A stretch of DNA of 20,799 bases from IMG/VR virus record IMGVR_UViG_3300037069_000968, positions 1-20,799 of that record; one strand, given 5' to 3'. Of this stretch, positions 1,277 to 11,843 are shown one piece after another. The DNA comes from a virus. The position numbers and the translations under genes were made by a program. The stretch's first letter is position 1. Each line of letters opens with the position of its first letter. A model generated the notes under the pieces. It worked only from the letters and a program-made list of their open reading frames with translations, searched no databases and was not told where the DNA came from.

Positions 1277-4200
1277 TTAGTTGTAATTTCCTCTTGGGAA
1301 GCCGACTGAAATGGCGTGTGCCTTAATCAGCCCTTGCGGGGGGGTCAATTTAATCTGTGGGATTTGCGTGGTAATTCCCTTCGCGCTGAGGTTGGACACG
1401 AAACTCTCACGCGGTTGGCTCGGCAAACCGCTGATCGTATCGCTCTTAATCAAAGCAGCGGCCCTATTAGCAGCCGACTTGGAGCCACTAGAACTACTAG
1501 CGGTAAGCGAATACTTCTGATTACTACTAATCTTAGTGGTGCCGCTCGAACCGCTTATGCTACGGAATTCTCCAGCCACGCCAGCCTGTGCAAGCGCTTG
1601 GTCAATAGCCCACAATTTTTGATATGTCGCTGGGTCATAGGTACTCTTGGCGGGATTACCCATAGCGTTCCATGCAGCTTTACTAGTGCTGTTATAAAGT
1701 TGCATATCGGAATATGGTATTTTGTTTTTGTCTGCTACGTTAAGCTGTGTGATGCTATCCTGTAGCGCCTGTTTAGTGCTCGGCGGGGTGTCTTTAGTGT
1801 TATCTAATGTGTTCAACTTGTCCTGTAACCCGGCCACCGCCTTGTCGTAGTTCCCGGTTTGAATATCGGTATTCACCACGTCATCGAAGTTATAGCCCTT
1901 TGGGACTGACCCGGCTACCGGCTTGAACATCGGAATGTCATTATTGTAATTATCCTTCGCCTTACTGAGAGCAGTAGCGGCTTGCGCCTTGGCTGCGGCC
2001 TGGGGCGCACCAACGCTAGAGCCACGGGTGAAGCGATCAAGCAGGTCGGGCGCGTTGACCGCAGGGTTGCGAGGAAGCGCAAGTTGACTAGCCACTGGTA
2101 TGCGGTTTAAGAGGCTAGCGCCCAAAGAAGGAATAATATCTTTGGCGGTCGATAGATGCCCTGTAGCGGTTAATTGACCGTCCTGCCCTTTAGTAATCTT
2201 CGTTTGAGCCGCTTCGCCAGTTGGGTTTAGCGGCGTATGGTTAAGAACAGCATTGATGTCTCCCGTAAAGGCGGGGATACCTTGTGAAACTACACCTTCG
2301 CCTGCCTGAGCTGCGGCGGCAGCCGGGTCGCCGGGAACCTTACCGGTTCCGGTTAAGGTAGACTGTATTTTAACTGCGTTATTATCAACGCCTAGCTGCA
2401 TACCGCCAATCGATTTGTAGCCGTTCAGGATAGAAGCGCCAAGTGTTTTGCCGAATTGTTGCATGGCATTGCCGCCGCCATTTAAGCCCTGATACAATGC
2501 GTTACCGAGTATAAGGCTTGGAGAGAAGAAGCCTAAATCGTTGACGGGTATATACCGGTTGGCAACGTGCAGATATGCGCCGCCGTCGTTATAGCCGTTC
2601 GCATCGGTGTTGGTTAGCAGGCCATGTTGGGTCATTAAATAACCGAGCGCGTAAGTATAAGCAGCGTTATTGGCCGTCTTTGCTAAATTCTCAACAATAC
2701 CATCCACGTCGCCATGCGCTGCGCTATTGAGCAGCTTCAAGGATGAAGCTACTACGTTTTTGTCGGTAATTGAGTTCCACATGTTGCCGCCTAAGAAACT
2801 GGTAAACGGCAAGATTTGGTTCTTAATAGCTCCGGCAATAAAGTTGCCCATCTTCGCCCCAAAGGTCGCATCGGGGGGGAGTTTCGCAGGGTCAATCGCA
2901 TTAGAGAGACGATTCAGCGTGTTGCTGATCGGGTTATCGTTCATGTGGTTAAGAGACTTCCATAATTGATCTGCATTAGCCGACATCTGACGGGTAGGAA
3001 CAGCCGAACGGCCTTCAGCGTACTGTTGCAGCATGTCGCCGGTTAGCCCCTTTTGTTGCCCCTCTTTGACAGCCAACTGGTATAGTCGTTGGTCGCGCAC
3101 TCCCTGTGTCAGATCAGAGGACGCATGAGAAGCGGTGTTTATCAGATTCGTCGTCTTTGGGAAGTAATTAGTGCCTGGACCACTGCGTAAGTTGGTCAAC
3201 GCACTGGCATCTCCCTTTAATGCTTTCTGTGTATCGTCAACAAATTGTGCTCCATGCAGCTTGTCCCATATATCAGCCCCACCTTGCCGGACGCCCGACA
3301 ACACCTTGGAATTTCCTTGAAGGGTATCTGTGGCCGACCCTGGCTTAACGAGATTGACGGCTTTAGCTAGAAGCCCTTGTGTAATATTCTGTGCACCCTG
3401 ATACAAGGTATTCGCTCCAGCAAAACCAACCGTATTCGCGCGTCCCGTTGGGCTGCTCAACATACCCGTCCGGGCTAAGGCATTAAGCTTCTGCCCTACC
3501 GTTGAGCCGGGGGTTAGCGTCTGATAGTACTTAGTTATCTCACCGTTCTGTTTCGCCAAGGTTGCCCTATCAGTGGCAAGTTGGTTATGCAAACCGGACG
3601 TATCGACTTTTGTGCCATTCTCCGCAGATAGTGCCGCTGTGTTGGCGTGGTCTTCTAAGGAAGCAATCCGAGCTTTAGTAGCTTCCTGTTGAGCAAATAA
3701 TTTATCCAATTGCGACGTAACTTGGCTCTGGAGCGCAACGTCATCTTTAATCAATGGCATCCCAGCGGCTTCGCGTATATTGTCGAGCCGGGTAATGACA
3801 AATGGTATCTTCGCTTGGCGGGGTAAACTATCTATCATGCTCTGAGCGAAGTTCATGGACCGGCCAGCGCCGGATATGCCTTTTTCCAGTCCCTCGCCAA
3901 TATTATTCATAGCCTGCTTAATGGCGGCAGCATCTTCAGGAGAAGCCCCCTCAAGTGCCTGGGACAGCTTTATGATTGCCCCTCGTGCATAAGCCTGGTC
4001 AGCAGTCTTCGATAAATCGGGTACGCCGCTATACCTTTGCACTAGCTCGTTTATCGGAACCTGAGCAACCGCATTTTCTCCAGCCTGTTGCAGCTCCTTA
4101 TTCCCTAAGACATTGTGTTCGGTCGGCTCGCCTGCGATTTTAGCGGCGTCCTGTAACCGTTGATTAAGAGCAGTTCTAATATTCGGTGCGTTCGGTGCTG

Positions 4201-9069: not shown

Positions 9070-10530
9070 TTACCACTTATGGTTAAGTATACTCCCTTGC
9101 ACAAGAGGGGGTTCCGGTTCTGGTTTTACCACTGAAGGGGCATACCCGTCGGTCGTGAACAGCCCCGGCCGGGTTATGTTTAATTGCATCAGCGGCACGT
9201 CCCCGATATTACGCAAGCGGTACGCCTTACCGTACCTGTCGCCTTCCCGTTTCGTCACGCGCTCAAAGCCCAACGCGGTCATCGCCTTACGCAAGTTACC
9301 AATACCGAGCGGTGGGTAGCCCTCCTCGGCGCACCAGTTCTCGTAATCCATCCGCACCTGGTTATAACTCTGGAACGCTATCACGCCCTCGCGCACGATA
9401 GACGCGGCATACTCCTCGGCGCAACTGGCCTCGGCGTCGTACTCAGCTTTAGCCGCCAGCGTCTTGGCACTCCACTTATAGCGGTAGCCTTGGGCGGCAA
9501 TCTGCTTGGCGTAGCGGCATAGCTCACTGATAAACTGCCCGAAAAACTCCGGCGTAAACACCTGCGCCTCGAAGCCGGGATTGCTCTCGAACACCTGATT
9601 AAACGGAATAATGAACGTCCGTCTCCGGGCGCTATACCCCTTATCGTTAAAGCTCGGTATACTGTTGGCACTGAAAATGGTGTGCAGATTGCCGTCAATC
9701 TCCAGGTCATCTTGGCTGTGGAAGCGGTGCACCCGGAAATTCTCGTGGGTCCCCAATGCTTTATAAATCTCGGTGTCGTCTACCCGGCCCTCACTGCTCT
9801 CCTTGACGATATTGCCAAGCTGTCCGTTGAGGCTGGGGGTGTCCCGGCCGTCCATCAGCCGCTTCACCGTAATAGAGGCAAGCGCTCCGGGGAATACCCT
9901 ATATATAGCGTCCATCAGCGTGCTCTTGCCGTTCGCCCCGTTCCCAACCCACCAAATCACCCCGTCTGGTTTCCGCTCCATCACCAGCGGCGCGATAGAC
10001 TGCATAATGTCGTCATACAGGCCCTCGTCACCGCCCGCCAAATCCATAATGAACTTCAGCCTGGCTCCGTCCGGCACCGGCATCTTCGGGTGCGGTGAGC
10101 GCCACACGCAGTCGTCCACCGTTAAGTCGCGCTGCCACGACAAGTCACGGGTGCTCCACACGCTCGGCGGGTTATTGGTAAGGAACGATATGTCGGTGTC
10201 GGCCTCGATCGGATACTCCAGCAGGCTCACCCCGAAGCACACCAGGTGCTCGTTAGCCGACATGTCCGGCGCGACCGAGCAGACATACGCGTACATGTCG
10301 CTGACCTGGCTGCGCGTCAGGCCGCCCCAAAGTTGATACGCCAGCGTCTCGAACTGCTCTTTGCGGAGCGGTATGTAATGCGGGTGCGGCTCCTTAATCA
10401 GCACCATCGCCCGGCGCTTAAACCGTATAAACCGCCACGCCTCCATGAGCTTCTGGCTGCGCCTGGCGACAACCGTTCCCGTCGGCTGTGCAGCAGTTTC
10501 GCCGGGCAAGTCGATAGTCTCCCGTTCCAT
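9070..10530 (-). CDS. D5-like SF3 replicative helicase (phage/plasmid primase-helicase family)
   Basis: 486 aa. The ATPase core starts near residue 155. Walker A is GNGANGKST at 196-204. A Walker B/B' region follows (GQLGNIVKESSEGRVDD, about 236-252). The sensor motif TIFSANSIPSF lies at about 284-294, and an arginine finger patch ARRR at 301-304 is followed by TFIIPF. This order is characteristic of D5/poxvirus-type superfamily 3 helicases, which unwind DNA at phage replication forks. The N-terminal 150 residues resemble the D5_N region. The usual archaeo-eukaryotic primase domain is absent, so a primase would have to be elsewhere. The C-terminal part (SYNQVRMDYENWCAEEGY ... RKAMTALGFERV) looks like a small DNA-binding winged-helix domain. 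It starts 6 bases after the HTH regulator gene, with GGAG about 10 bases upstream. Confidence 0.88.
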   Translation of the reverse strand: MERETIDLPGETAAQPTGTVVARRSQKLMEAWRFIRFKRRAMVLIKEPHPHYIPLRKEQFETLAYQLWGGLTRSQVSDMYAYVCSVAPDMSANEHLVCFGVSLLEYPIEADTDISFLTNNPPSVWSTRDLSWQRDLTVDDCVWRSPHPKMPVPDGARLKFIMDLAGGDEGLYDDIMQSIAPLVMERKPDGVIWWVGNGANGKSTLMDAIYRVFPGALASITVKRLMDGRDTPSLNGQLGNIVKESSEGRVDDTEIYKALGTHENFRVHRFHSQDDLEIDGNLHTIFSANSIPSFNDKGYSARRRTFIIPFNQVFESNPGFEAQVFTPEFFGQFISELCRYAKQIAAQGYRYKWSAKTLAAKAEYDAEASCAEEYAASIVREGVIAFQSYNQVRMDYENWCAEEGYPPLGIGNLRKAMTALGFERVTKREGDRYGKAYRLRNIGDVPLMQLNITRPGLFTTDGYAPSVVKPEPEPPLVQGSILNHKW

Positions 10531-10536
10531 AGCCCG

Positions 10537-10782
10537 CTATCTCCACTCTCCGGTAGTCCAGTTAATCTCGTCATCGTCTGCAAACCGTAGCCCGCTCTCA
10601 TTCATTAAATATACCAGCACCCTAACTGGCGGCTCATACGTCGCCGTCTCCCACGAGCTGACCGCTTGCTTCGTCACGCCGAACCGCTCCCCGAATTCTT
10701 CTTGCGTTTCGTTTTTGTCCTCGCGGAGTTTTTTTATGTTTACGCACCAGACGGGCAATCGTTTTGCTTGTGGTTGTTCCAT
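10537..10782 (-). CDS. HTH XRE-family regulator (Cro/CI-like)
   Basis: 81 aa. Residues about 14-60 form a helix-turn-helix: VNIKKLREDKNETQEEFGERF, then GVTKQAVSSWE as the recognition helix and a third helix RVLVYLMNE. This is the lambda repressor/Cro fold, so it binds operator DNA as a dimer. It lacks a C-terminal peptidase domain, so it is not a self-cleaving CI repressor. The ATG at 10782 has AGGG 5 bases upstream. It is the first gene of the leftward operon and directly faces the divergent control region, where several palindromes could be its operators. Whether it represses the rightward genes, its own promoter, or both cannot be told. Confidence 0.85.
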   Translation of the reverse strand: MEQPQAKRLPVWCVNIKKLREDKNETQEEFGERFGVTKQAVSSWETATYEPPVRVLVYLMNESGLRFADDDEINWTTGEWR

Positions 10783-10893
10783 GGTGCCCTAAGCATACAG
10801 GGCTAGCTTGACCAGCACAAGCGCTATATGTAGGATTTTTTACAGACGCCCGACACCATACCACTGTTCGCTAGCGTGACATTTGAGGACATG

Positions 10894-10915
10894 ATAATAG
10901 TCATATGTCAATAGG
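10894..10915. repeat. Imperfect palindrome between XRE gene and its promoter
   Basis: GACAT at the left end and ATGTC at the right end are separated by 12 bases containing GATAATAGTCAT. The arms match over 5 bases with only partial symmetry inside. It lies about 110 bases upstream of the XRE gene on its leader side. It could be a weak operator half-site pair; the match is short and could be chance. Confidence 0.25.
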
Positions 10916-11062
10916 TGGGGAAACGGGAGAAATTTTTGGATGGGATGTAGCGCGAAAAGTTGCGACATCTTATAACACTGCCCCCCCGCCCTGTCAATAC
11001 CACTTTGCGCCGTGCCACGCATACTATTTGACAGCTTCGGGAGCCTCTTGACAAGAATATCG

Positions 11063-11077
11063 TTGTAGGATTTACAA
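11063..11077. promoter_or_regulatory. Palindrome TTGTA-N5-TACAA, candidate operator (copy 1)
   Basis: A perfect 5+5 inverted repeat with a 5-base centre. The 9 bases ATCGTTGTA at 11059-11067 recur exactly at 11420-11428, where they again begin a TTGTA...TACAA palindrome. The copy flanks the leftward promoter on its downstream side. Confidence 0.4.
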
Positions 11078-11094
11078 GCTAACAGGGGTCGGAG

Positions 11095-11124
11095 TACGTC
11101 GCACAATGTGTATTTTGCGACGTA
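11095..11124. promoter_or_regulatory. Strong 30-bp palindrome at the leftward start site, candidate operator or leader hairpin
   Basis: TACGTCGCA at 11095-11103 is exactly complementary to TGCGACGTA at 11116-11124. A further AAT/ATT pair lies inside, with one mismatch and a 4-base loop (GTGT). It lies immediately downstream of the leftward -10 hexamer, so it would cover the start site or form a hairpin at the very 5' end of that transcript. There is no T-run on either side, so it is not an intrinsic terminator. A partial second copy, TTGCGACATC, lies at about 10961-10970. Confidence 0.5.
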
Positions 11125-11132
11125 AAAAGCCT

Positions 11133-11141
11133 ATTATAACA
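11133..11141 (-). promoter_or_regulatory. Leftward promoter, extended -10 TGTTATAAT
   Basis: On the minus strand a perfect TATAAT (11133-11138) is preceded by TGn (11139-11141), a consensus extended -10. No good -35 hexamer sits 16-18 bases upstream, which extended -10 promoters tolerate. Transcription would start near 11126 and give the XRE/helicase operon an untranslated leader of about 340 bases beginning in the 11095-11124 palindrome. Confidence 0.55.
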
Positions 11142-11157
11142 CAATTAACAGGGGTGG

Positions 11158-11201
11158 AACGTGCTACATCATATTACAACATAACGTGCTACATGTTGTA
11201 A
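11158..11201. repeat. Direct repeat AACGTGCTACAT plus palindrome TTACAACAT-N10-ATGTTGTAA
   Basis: AACGTGCTACAT occurs exactly at 11158-11169 and 11183-11194, 25 bases apart. The second copy sits in the 10-base centre of a perfect 9+9 inverted repeat, TTACAACAT (11174-11182) and ATGTTGTAA (11193-11201). The core GTGCTAC recurs at 11475-11481 and 16745-16751, both times as the extended -10 part of a rightward promoter, and the related CGCTACATCC appears on the minus strand near 10940. It may be a set of regulator sites, weak promoters, or both. Confidence 0.5.
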
Positions 11202-11212
11202 GAATGTATGCT

Positions 11213-11220
11213 GTGTACAC
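11213..11220. repeat. Unpaired fifth GTGTACAC site
   Basis: The same 8-base palindrome as in the 11222-11410 element, only 10 bases (one helical turn) from the next copy at 11223. It has no mirror partner on the right side, which breaks the symmetry and gives the element a direction. Confidence 0.5.
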
Positions 11221-11221
11221 T

Positions 11222-11410
11222 TGTGTACACTTTTTGCCTTTTTTCTAACAGCGTTGTGTACACTTAGACACTTATTTTCTTGTTATTTAGGTTTTTTATA
11301 GCCACCTCTGTAGCGCTTGCCTCTATCCTACCAAAATAAAACATATATATAGAAAACTAACTGTCTAAGTGTACACACATCTGTTATTTTTTGAGTGAAA
11401 AGTGTACACA
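11222..11410. repeat. Nested 189-bp dyad of GTGTACAC sites, centre 11316
   Basis: Two inverted-repeat pairs share exactly one centre. Outer pair: TGTGTACACTTTT (11222-11234) against AAAAGTGTACACA (11398-11410). Inner pair: TGTGTACACTTAGACA (11255-11270) against TGTCTAAGTGTACACA (11362-11377). Start plus mirrored end equals 22632 for both pairs. TAACAG (11247-11252) also mirrors CTGTTA (11380-11385), and short TTA and TTT blocks continue inward. The centre is AT-rich with TATATATA near 11343-11350. Spacing conserved this precisely over 190 bp suggests a protein array or looped complex. It could be an origin of replication or a shared operator for both operons. Confidence 0.75.
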
Positions 11411-11423
11411 TACCCTAAAATCG

Positions 11424-11439
11424 TTGTAATTTTATACAA
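11424..11439. promoter_or_regulatory. Palindrome TTGTA-N6-TACAA, candidate operator (copy 2)
   Basis: An inverted repeat sharing ATCGTTGTA (11420-11428) with the copy at 11059. It lies 16 bases before the -35 of the rightward promoter, a normal place for an activator or repressor site. Confidence 0.4.
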
Positions 11440-11454
11440 TATCGTGCTCGCATG

Positions 11455-11484
11455 TTGACATAACGTGTTGCAGCGTGCTACGAT
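11455..11484 (+). promoter_or_regulatory. Rightward early promoter TTGACA-N18-TACGAT with TGC extension
   Basis: A perfect -35 TTGACA (11455-11460), an 18-base spacer ending TGC, and -10 TACGAT (11479-11484). The extended TGn element compensates for the imperfect -10. Transcription would begin near 11491, giving a leader of about 218 bases that includes the structured element at 11564-11690, before the first strong ribosome binding site at 11698. The 10-mer ACATAACGTG within it also occurs at 11179-11188. Confidence 0.6.
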
Positions 11485-11563
11485 GTGTGCATGATCAAAT
11501 TTAGATTGAATCATAAAGTTTAATACTGATTATTCTATAAACGATCATAAGAGTACATTAACA

Positions 11564-11690
11564 ATCTAGTCACCGCATCCGCATAACCGCCATTGCTCTG
11601 GACAAGTAACTTCGGCCTGTACTTCGTGAGACAGATAACCGCAAGGGTATAACAATTCATGCGATAGTTATGCGGACATGGTGACTAGAT
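11564..11690 (+). ncRNA. Candidate structured RNA element in the early operon leader
   Basis: The ends are complementary: ATCTAGTCACC (11564-11574) with GGTGACTAGAT (11680-11690), and TCCGCATAAC (11578-11587) with GTTATGCGGA (11667-11676). They are separated by a G-U pair and a 2x2 internal loop. By hand, CGC/GCG (11588-11590/11661-11663) and ATTG/CAAT (11592-11595/11653-11656) extend the stem. Inside lie a C(UUCG)G loop (11610-11615) with flanking AAGTA/TACTT, a hairpin CTGT...ACAG (11617-11634), and CC(GCAA)GG (11639-11646). UUCG and GNRA loops argue for a functional RNA rather than a DNA operator. The ribosome binding site AAGGAG begins 8 bases after the stem. It could be a cis-acting leader, a processed small RNA, or a stability element. 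No known family is recognised. Confidence 0.6.
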
Positions 11691-11708
11691 GAACAATAAG
11701 GAGTACAA

Positions 11709-11843
11709 ATGGCAACAAAATTAATACCTTGTGTAGCGTGTCCTAGAACCGCAACACATACAATTACAGCTAGTGGTGGCACTGCGGTTTATTACTGTAC
11801 GCCGCATTACAGGGGAGCAGTCCGGAAGTTACAACAACAATAA
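11709..11843 (+). CDS. 44-aa zinc-finger-like early protein
   Basis: Read directly from the sequence. AAGGAG (11698-11703) lies 5 bases before the ATG, one of the best ribosome binding sites in the window. The protein begins MATKLIPCVACPRTATHTI and continues with AVYYCTPHYRGAVRKLQQQ. The CxxC pair and the C-x-x-H pair could hold one zinc ion, a form common in small phage proteins that touch host RNA polymerase or DNA. It is the first gene after the rightward promoter and leader RNA, so probably the earliest protein made. Function unknown. Confidence 0.7.
   Translation: MATKLIPCVACPRTATHTITASGGTAVYYCTPHYRGAVRKLQQQ

Follow-up and report, generated by a model that had tools for sequence, protein, structure and literature searches.

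The window, by which is meant the whole stretch of DNA analysed here, is a 20.8-kb IMG/VR virus record in which late-type genes and a primase-like gene occupy the minus strand up to position 10530 and are followed by a gene for a small HTH repressor (10537-10782). The early genes lie on the plus strand and encode a SNF2-type helicase, a Sak4-like annealase and a YqaJ exonuclease, together with a gene at the position of a single-strand-binding protein (SSB), for which no family match was found and whose assignment is the reading adopted here. The minus-strand and plus-strand gene arms are separated by an origin-like region rich in repeats and by a promoter-like site. Around an A+T-rich centre, the origin-like region (10880-11450) carries TAACAGGGGT / ACCTCTGTTA repeats, present on both strands, and repeats of the TGTGTACACTT type; it also contains an imperfect inverted repeat of 33-57 nt at 11222-11410. 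Such a region is present at the same place in the related contigs L001, L002, L004, L006, L022, L029, L034 and L057, and its TGTGTACACTT-type repeats differ in sequence between phages.

The promoter-like site was the best of a promoter scan and, read by eye, is found at the same place in most relatives. A hairpin of 127 nt (11564-11690) starts approximately 73 nt downstream of the inferred transcription start and ends shortly before the first early ribosome binding site, which agrees with its placement in the preliminary description. The features of the leader are:

11455-11484, plus strand: TTGACA-18-TACGAT, a promoter-like site for the early genes whose second hexamer is preceded by TG
11558-11563, plus strand: TTAACA motif immediately 5' of the stem, a motif that nine further hairpins in the phage group also carry
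11564-11575, plus strand: outer helix, 5' strand; pairs with 11679-11690 over 12 bp including one G-U, from the predicted fold and the leader ensemble
11576-11577, plus strand: 2x2 internal mismatch, 5' side; CA opposite CA at 11677-11678 in the predicted fold
11578-11587, plus strand: inner helix, 5' strand; pairs with 11667-11676 over 10 bp, from the predicted fold and the leader ensemble
11588-11666, plus strand: interior of 79 nt; three weak hairpins, with stability at chance
11667-11676, plus strand: inner helix, 3' strand, from the predicted fold and the leader ensemble
11677-11678, plus strand: 2x2 internal mismatch, 3' side, in the predicted fold
11679-11690, plus strand: outer helix, 3' strand, from the predicted fold and the leader ensemble
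11698-11703, plus strand: Shine-Dalgarno sequence AAGGAG, starting 8 bases past the stem and partly open in the fold
11709-11843, plus strand: 44-aa ORF, the first of the early genes, containing CxxC and CxxH motifs

At 11490-11520 an ATG lies approximately 6-8 nt past the -10 hexamer of the early promoter and opens an ORF of 10 aa; the same placement is seen in L006 (54-aa ORF), L022 (23-aa ORF) and L008, and, provided that transcription starts where inferred, these short ORFs would have no leader.

The ends of the hairpin are complementary over 24 nt (11564-11587 and 11667-11690) around an internal loop, as had been described beforehand, and form 22 pairs (21 Watson-Crick and one G-U) arranged as 12 bp, a CA/CA 2x2 mismatch and 10 bp. 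The predicted minimum free energy is -48.4 kcal/mol (z -5.3), none of 200 shuffled sequences was as stable, and the inverted-repeat score was 22 versus a best of 20 among 100 dinucleotide-shuffled windows. RNA folding was among the checks originally proposed; for the whole leader it gave ensemble pair probabilities of 0.88-1.00 for the stem. The 79-nt interior folded alone has no stability beyond chance (z +0.3), indicating that the closing stem carries the signal, and the leader minus the element has a z of -0.8. Other parts of the preliminary description did not survive folding: UUCG and GCAA had been read as tetraloops, but neither is one in the predicted fold and GCAA lies within a stem. 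ATAACCGC does occur twice inside the element (11583-11590 and 11635-11642), but the alternative fold proposed to use its second copy has negligible weight, with AUAAC pairing below 0.03 and the local pairing of CGC at 0.92-0.94. What stands is a structured leader RNA without a known family; the switch via the second ATAACCGC and the tetraloops do not.

As in the preliminary description, no known family was recognised: a search of Rfam 15 gave no match at the gathering level for the window or the loci of ten relatives, nor a hit of any relevance at E<=10, and neither ARAGORN nor Rfam found a tRNA or tmRNA in the window, L029, L057, L059, L064, L065, L036 or L192. T-arm-like sequences do lie in two hairpin interiors (L190 3940-4120, plus strand, and L061 reverse complement 10069-10177; GGGTTCGATTCC and GGCGGTTCAAATCCGC). 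A tRNA-like content of the elements was nevertheless rejected, as L190 has only a sub-threshold tRNA-Sec match and no tRNA according to ARAGORN, and most elements lack any such likeness. Outside any element, ARAGORN reports a tRNA-Pyl with anticodon CTA in L006 (14503-14595, plus strand). A riboswitch was rejected on the chance-level interior, which is not conserved among the elements seen, and on the lack of an Rfam match; an intrinsic terminator, because 11564-11690 is absent from the terminator scan and GAACAATAAGG lies 3' of the stem; an attC-like site, because its boxes are wrongly placed; and TTAACA as a -35 box, because by eye there is no -10 at proper spacing.

Relatives of the window phage were found by scans with Sak4, primase, helicase, YqaJ and a 97-aa early protein, which yielded approximately 25 related contigs from uncultured phages. 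The Sak4 scan of genomes returned nothing, the primase scan only distant relatives, and matches to cultured phages are remote. No DNA homologue of the hairpin was found in phages, plasmids, the whole records of nine relatives or all fetched loci, and its exact arm pattern has no match in viral contigs. The hairpin is not essential to the group, since L001, L002 and L004, which are among the closest relatives, have unstructured leaders of approximately 95-120 nt (z -0.4 to +0.2) without one. The short leaders of L001 and L002, neither with a long hairpin, both contain TAGGCGGCAACGGTAGCACAT.

Long-armed hairpins nonetheless recur ahead of the early genes of the group and are unrelated in sequence. 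The L029 leader (628 nt, z -7.9) contains about five long hairpins in succession (1780-2250, plus strand) with arms of 20-27 nt, most of them without TTAACA; the L034 leader has one long hairpin (z -3.4), the L057 leader a 186-nt multibranched hairpin (z -4.4), and those of L008 and L022 other hairpins (z -3.1 and -4.8, respectively). Such structures are found between early genes as well as in leaders: a tandem pair of long-armed hairpins lies ahead of the SSB-like gene in L029, and a single one follows yqaJ in L034.

In ten elements, that of the window included, the stem begins 0-4 nt after TTAACA, and 3' of the stem lies a gene start or, in a tandem, the next hairpin and then a gene start. 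Across 25 group loci, long-armed hairpins scoring at least 40 follow 10 of 177 TTAACA rows versus 2 of 898 for permuted hexamers, where the ten rows include one origin repeat and one duplicate contig and a further element, that of L057, scores 37.5. Fisher's test on 9/175 versus 3/898 gave p 9.6e-6 (at thresholds of 37 and 38, which differ slightly). TTAACA had been spotted before it was tested, so this first test was not blind; the control sets were. In 125 unrelated loci there was no significant TTAACA excess (4/576 vs 9/3639 at a score of at least 38, p 0.09), and 297 kb of mostly late-gene DNA from the same phages contained no TTAACA hairpin at 40 or above. Contigs fetched later added a single new TTAACA hairpin, in L192 (1/60, which alone is not significant): ATTAACAA, a stem of 12 bp + 1x1 + 13 bp with z -5.4, and downstream of it TAACTAATAAGGAG and a gene.

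The data describe a class, well supported, that consists of UUAACA, a mismatched stem of approximately 20-26 bp around a loop that varies in both size and content, and a gene start. Its definition, a stem with arms of at least 20 nt that begins 0-4 nt past TTAACA and is followed by a gene start, describes what is found in the window at 11558-11711. The hairpins span 64-186 nt and their loops 50-110 nt, and the sequence upstream of TTAACA differs in all ten elements. Because sequence is unconserved, ordinary homology and Rfam searches miss the class, which was found by its anatomy of motif, stem and gene start.

Covariation, proposed beforehand as a test on homologous leaders, was examined in four of the other hairpins, a subfamily with arm sequence in common. 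The L065 hairpin matches that of L190 by sequence in both arms, and in the outer helices a T-A pair in one is replaced on both sides by C-G in the other, with pairing kept. When the arms of L065, L190, L192 and L064 are aligned, 96.8% of cells are paired and two-sided changes occur at 9 of 24 pairs, a signal that is lost when partners are slid or shuffled; interiors were trimmed before this alignment, and three of its four hairpins had been found via complementarity and only L190 by sequence alone. Covariance model R1, built on this subfamily, gave no match to the window among 55 sources at E<=10. With filters off the window reaches approximately 10 bits at best (E 0.03-0.1 for 351 bases), off the stem as such, and membership of the window element in the class is therefore a matter of anatomy and not of demonstrable descent. 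A second TAACAATTCAT within the element near the 3' arm (window 11648-11697) could pair with the ATGAAC that precedes the Shine-Dalgarno sequence (approximately 10 bits to R1), a pairing that is probably due to chance.

Compensatory changes of this kind could likewise be produced by an exchange between the arms. The inverted repeat may act solely at the DNA level, as a cruciform, a small mobile element or a site of recombination or replication, leaving the RNA without function. The arms are perfect or near-perfect, AACAAT lies on both flanks of the window hairpin and the element adjoins the origin-like repeat region, all of which would suit such a site. On the other hand, the motif is sense-oriented and a gene start adjoins the elements, and G-U pairs exceed A-C mismatches across the element arms, albeit only modestly (23 vs 14) and with no clear strand bias; the window stem itself has one G-U and two A-C. 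A transposable element or MITE would be expected to share its ends, but no second copy is present in the relatives' records or the fetched loci, the arms are unrelated and no ends are common. A purely DNA-level function is regarded as improbable.

The element might instead be an independent small RNA, or a decoy, of approximately 127 nt that is cut out of the early transcript, for which the compact, very stable and self-contained fold and the tandem arrangement of related elements in L029 and L064 would be appropriate. Against this, the interior is unconserved among elements and structured at chance level, and no terminator lies downstream; this explanation is the most doubtful of those considered.

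The presence of a gene start 3' of the stem, with the window Shine-Dalgarno sequence 8 bases away, raises the question of translation, whose control was among the suggestions of the preliminary description. Repression by the stem is not what the fold shows, since the stem is unpaired with the ribosome binding site, which has a probability of being unpaired of approximately 0.4-0.7 in the window and 0.8-1.0 in L192. The stem could alternatively bring upstream single-stranded RNA near the Shine-Dalgarno sequence as a standby or protein-binding site and so set the initiation rate of the next gene, and the mostly open Shine-Dalgarno sequences of L192 and L029 are compatible with this. However, elements differ widely in how far the start codon lies from the stem, and the genes downstream are mutually unrelated, and control of this kind is considered rather unlikely.

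The main rival explanation starts from the motif. UUAACA(A) is the 3' half of the boxA of E. coli rRNA leaders. UUAACA could be a boxA, bound by NusB/S10, and the hairpin an oversized boxB or a put-like structure, and RNA polymerase would then be modified shortly after leaving the early promoter and again where internal gene blocks begin. The element does lie directly past the early promoter, and the spacing of motif and hairpin is tight in the ten elements. Against nut-like antitermination, the GCUCU half of boxA is missing in 10/10 elements, the hairpins measure 64-186 nt compared with 15 nt for boxB, no antiterminator protein was recognised, and a scan for intrinsic terminators found no sense-strand terminator-like site in the early operon of the window. 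It is judged unlikely, although less so than the explanations above.

The explanation tentatively preferred, at somewhat less than an even chance, is that the element is a cis-acting 5'-UTR hairpin that would set the 5' end and the lifetime of the early mRNA, analogous to a T7 RNase III leader site or a 5' stabiliser. That the element is transcribed and takes part in early mRNA processing or stability is inferred. The transcript would be cut at or beside the stem, either within the duplex by RNase III or, in the A/U-rich segment with UUAACA, by an endonuclease specific for single strands, and the downstream gene would then sit behind a folded 5' end that resists 5' decay while its ribosome binding site stays open. 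Elements are present both in leaders and between early genes, as before the SSB-like gene of L029, which is how mRNA processing sites are distributed and argues for processing. Also counted in favour of the leader hairpin were a stem beyond chance and near certain in the ensemble, its location between promoter-like site and first ribosome binding site, the group-specific TTAACA association, the L192 case, the subfamily covariation and the operon without terminator-like sites. Counted against it were the absence of a homologue of the element, the R1 mismatch, the hairpin-free leaders of L001, L002 and L004 and the lack of a wobble strand bias. The loops of 50-110 nt exceed those of T7 sites, and cleavage by RNase III would leave UUAACA unexplained. 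Among the functions suggested in the preliminary description, processing or protection of the mRNA end is the best candidate.

A bolder and less probable possibility is that the elements constitute a new class of cis-RNA: modular hairpins that have UUAACA as their common entry motif and whose arms and interiors can be exchanged, which might recruit one host or phage factor for early-mRNA processing, antitermination or decay evasion. On the same reading, and with the same reserve, the modules may turn over freely before early genes, giving from none to about five hairpins per leader.

The window hairpin is real and belongs to the class defined here; its function is a candidate only. An architecture that is kept while its sequence turns over would help to explain how the first transcripts of these uncultured phages are controlled and protected. 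If UUAACA is the site of a nuclease or Nus factor, the element would be a compact and testable cis-signal.

Several known systems offer points of comparison. The lambdoid nut sites (boxA-boxB) and the rRNA-leader boxA share with the window element a leader position, a sequence resembling UUAACA in the 3' half of boxA and a hairpin next to it, whereas the window element lacks the GCUCU half, has a hairpin far above boxB size and has neither a known antiterminator nor terminator-like sites ahead. HK022 put sites, which consist of two small hairpins, are likewise structured RNA in a phage early leader. RNase III cuts T7 early mRNA at five sites (PMC4858673), and these resemble the present elements in occupying leader and intergenic positions in an early polycistronic phage mRNA and in forming about two helical turns with an internal mismatch; the window stem, with 22 predicted pairs and its 2x2 mismatch, is such a duplex of approximately two turns. 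The class differs from the T7 sites in its larger loops (50-110 nt) with little conserved structure, in the UUAACA that precedes the stem in ten cases and in its unrelated sequence. In B. subtilis and E. coli, mRNA can be stabilised by hairpins placed at the 5' end or close to it, those of aprE and papA being examples (PMC3997798), and the window element shares with them a predicted near-5' hairpin followed by an open ribosome binding site. Unlike these stabilisers, the class also occurs inside operons and the window hairpin lies approximately 73 nt from the inferred start, so that a prior cut would be needed for it to act as one.
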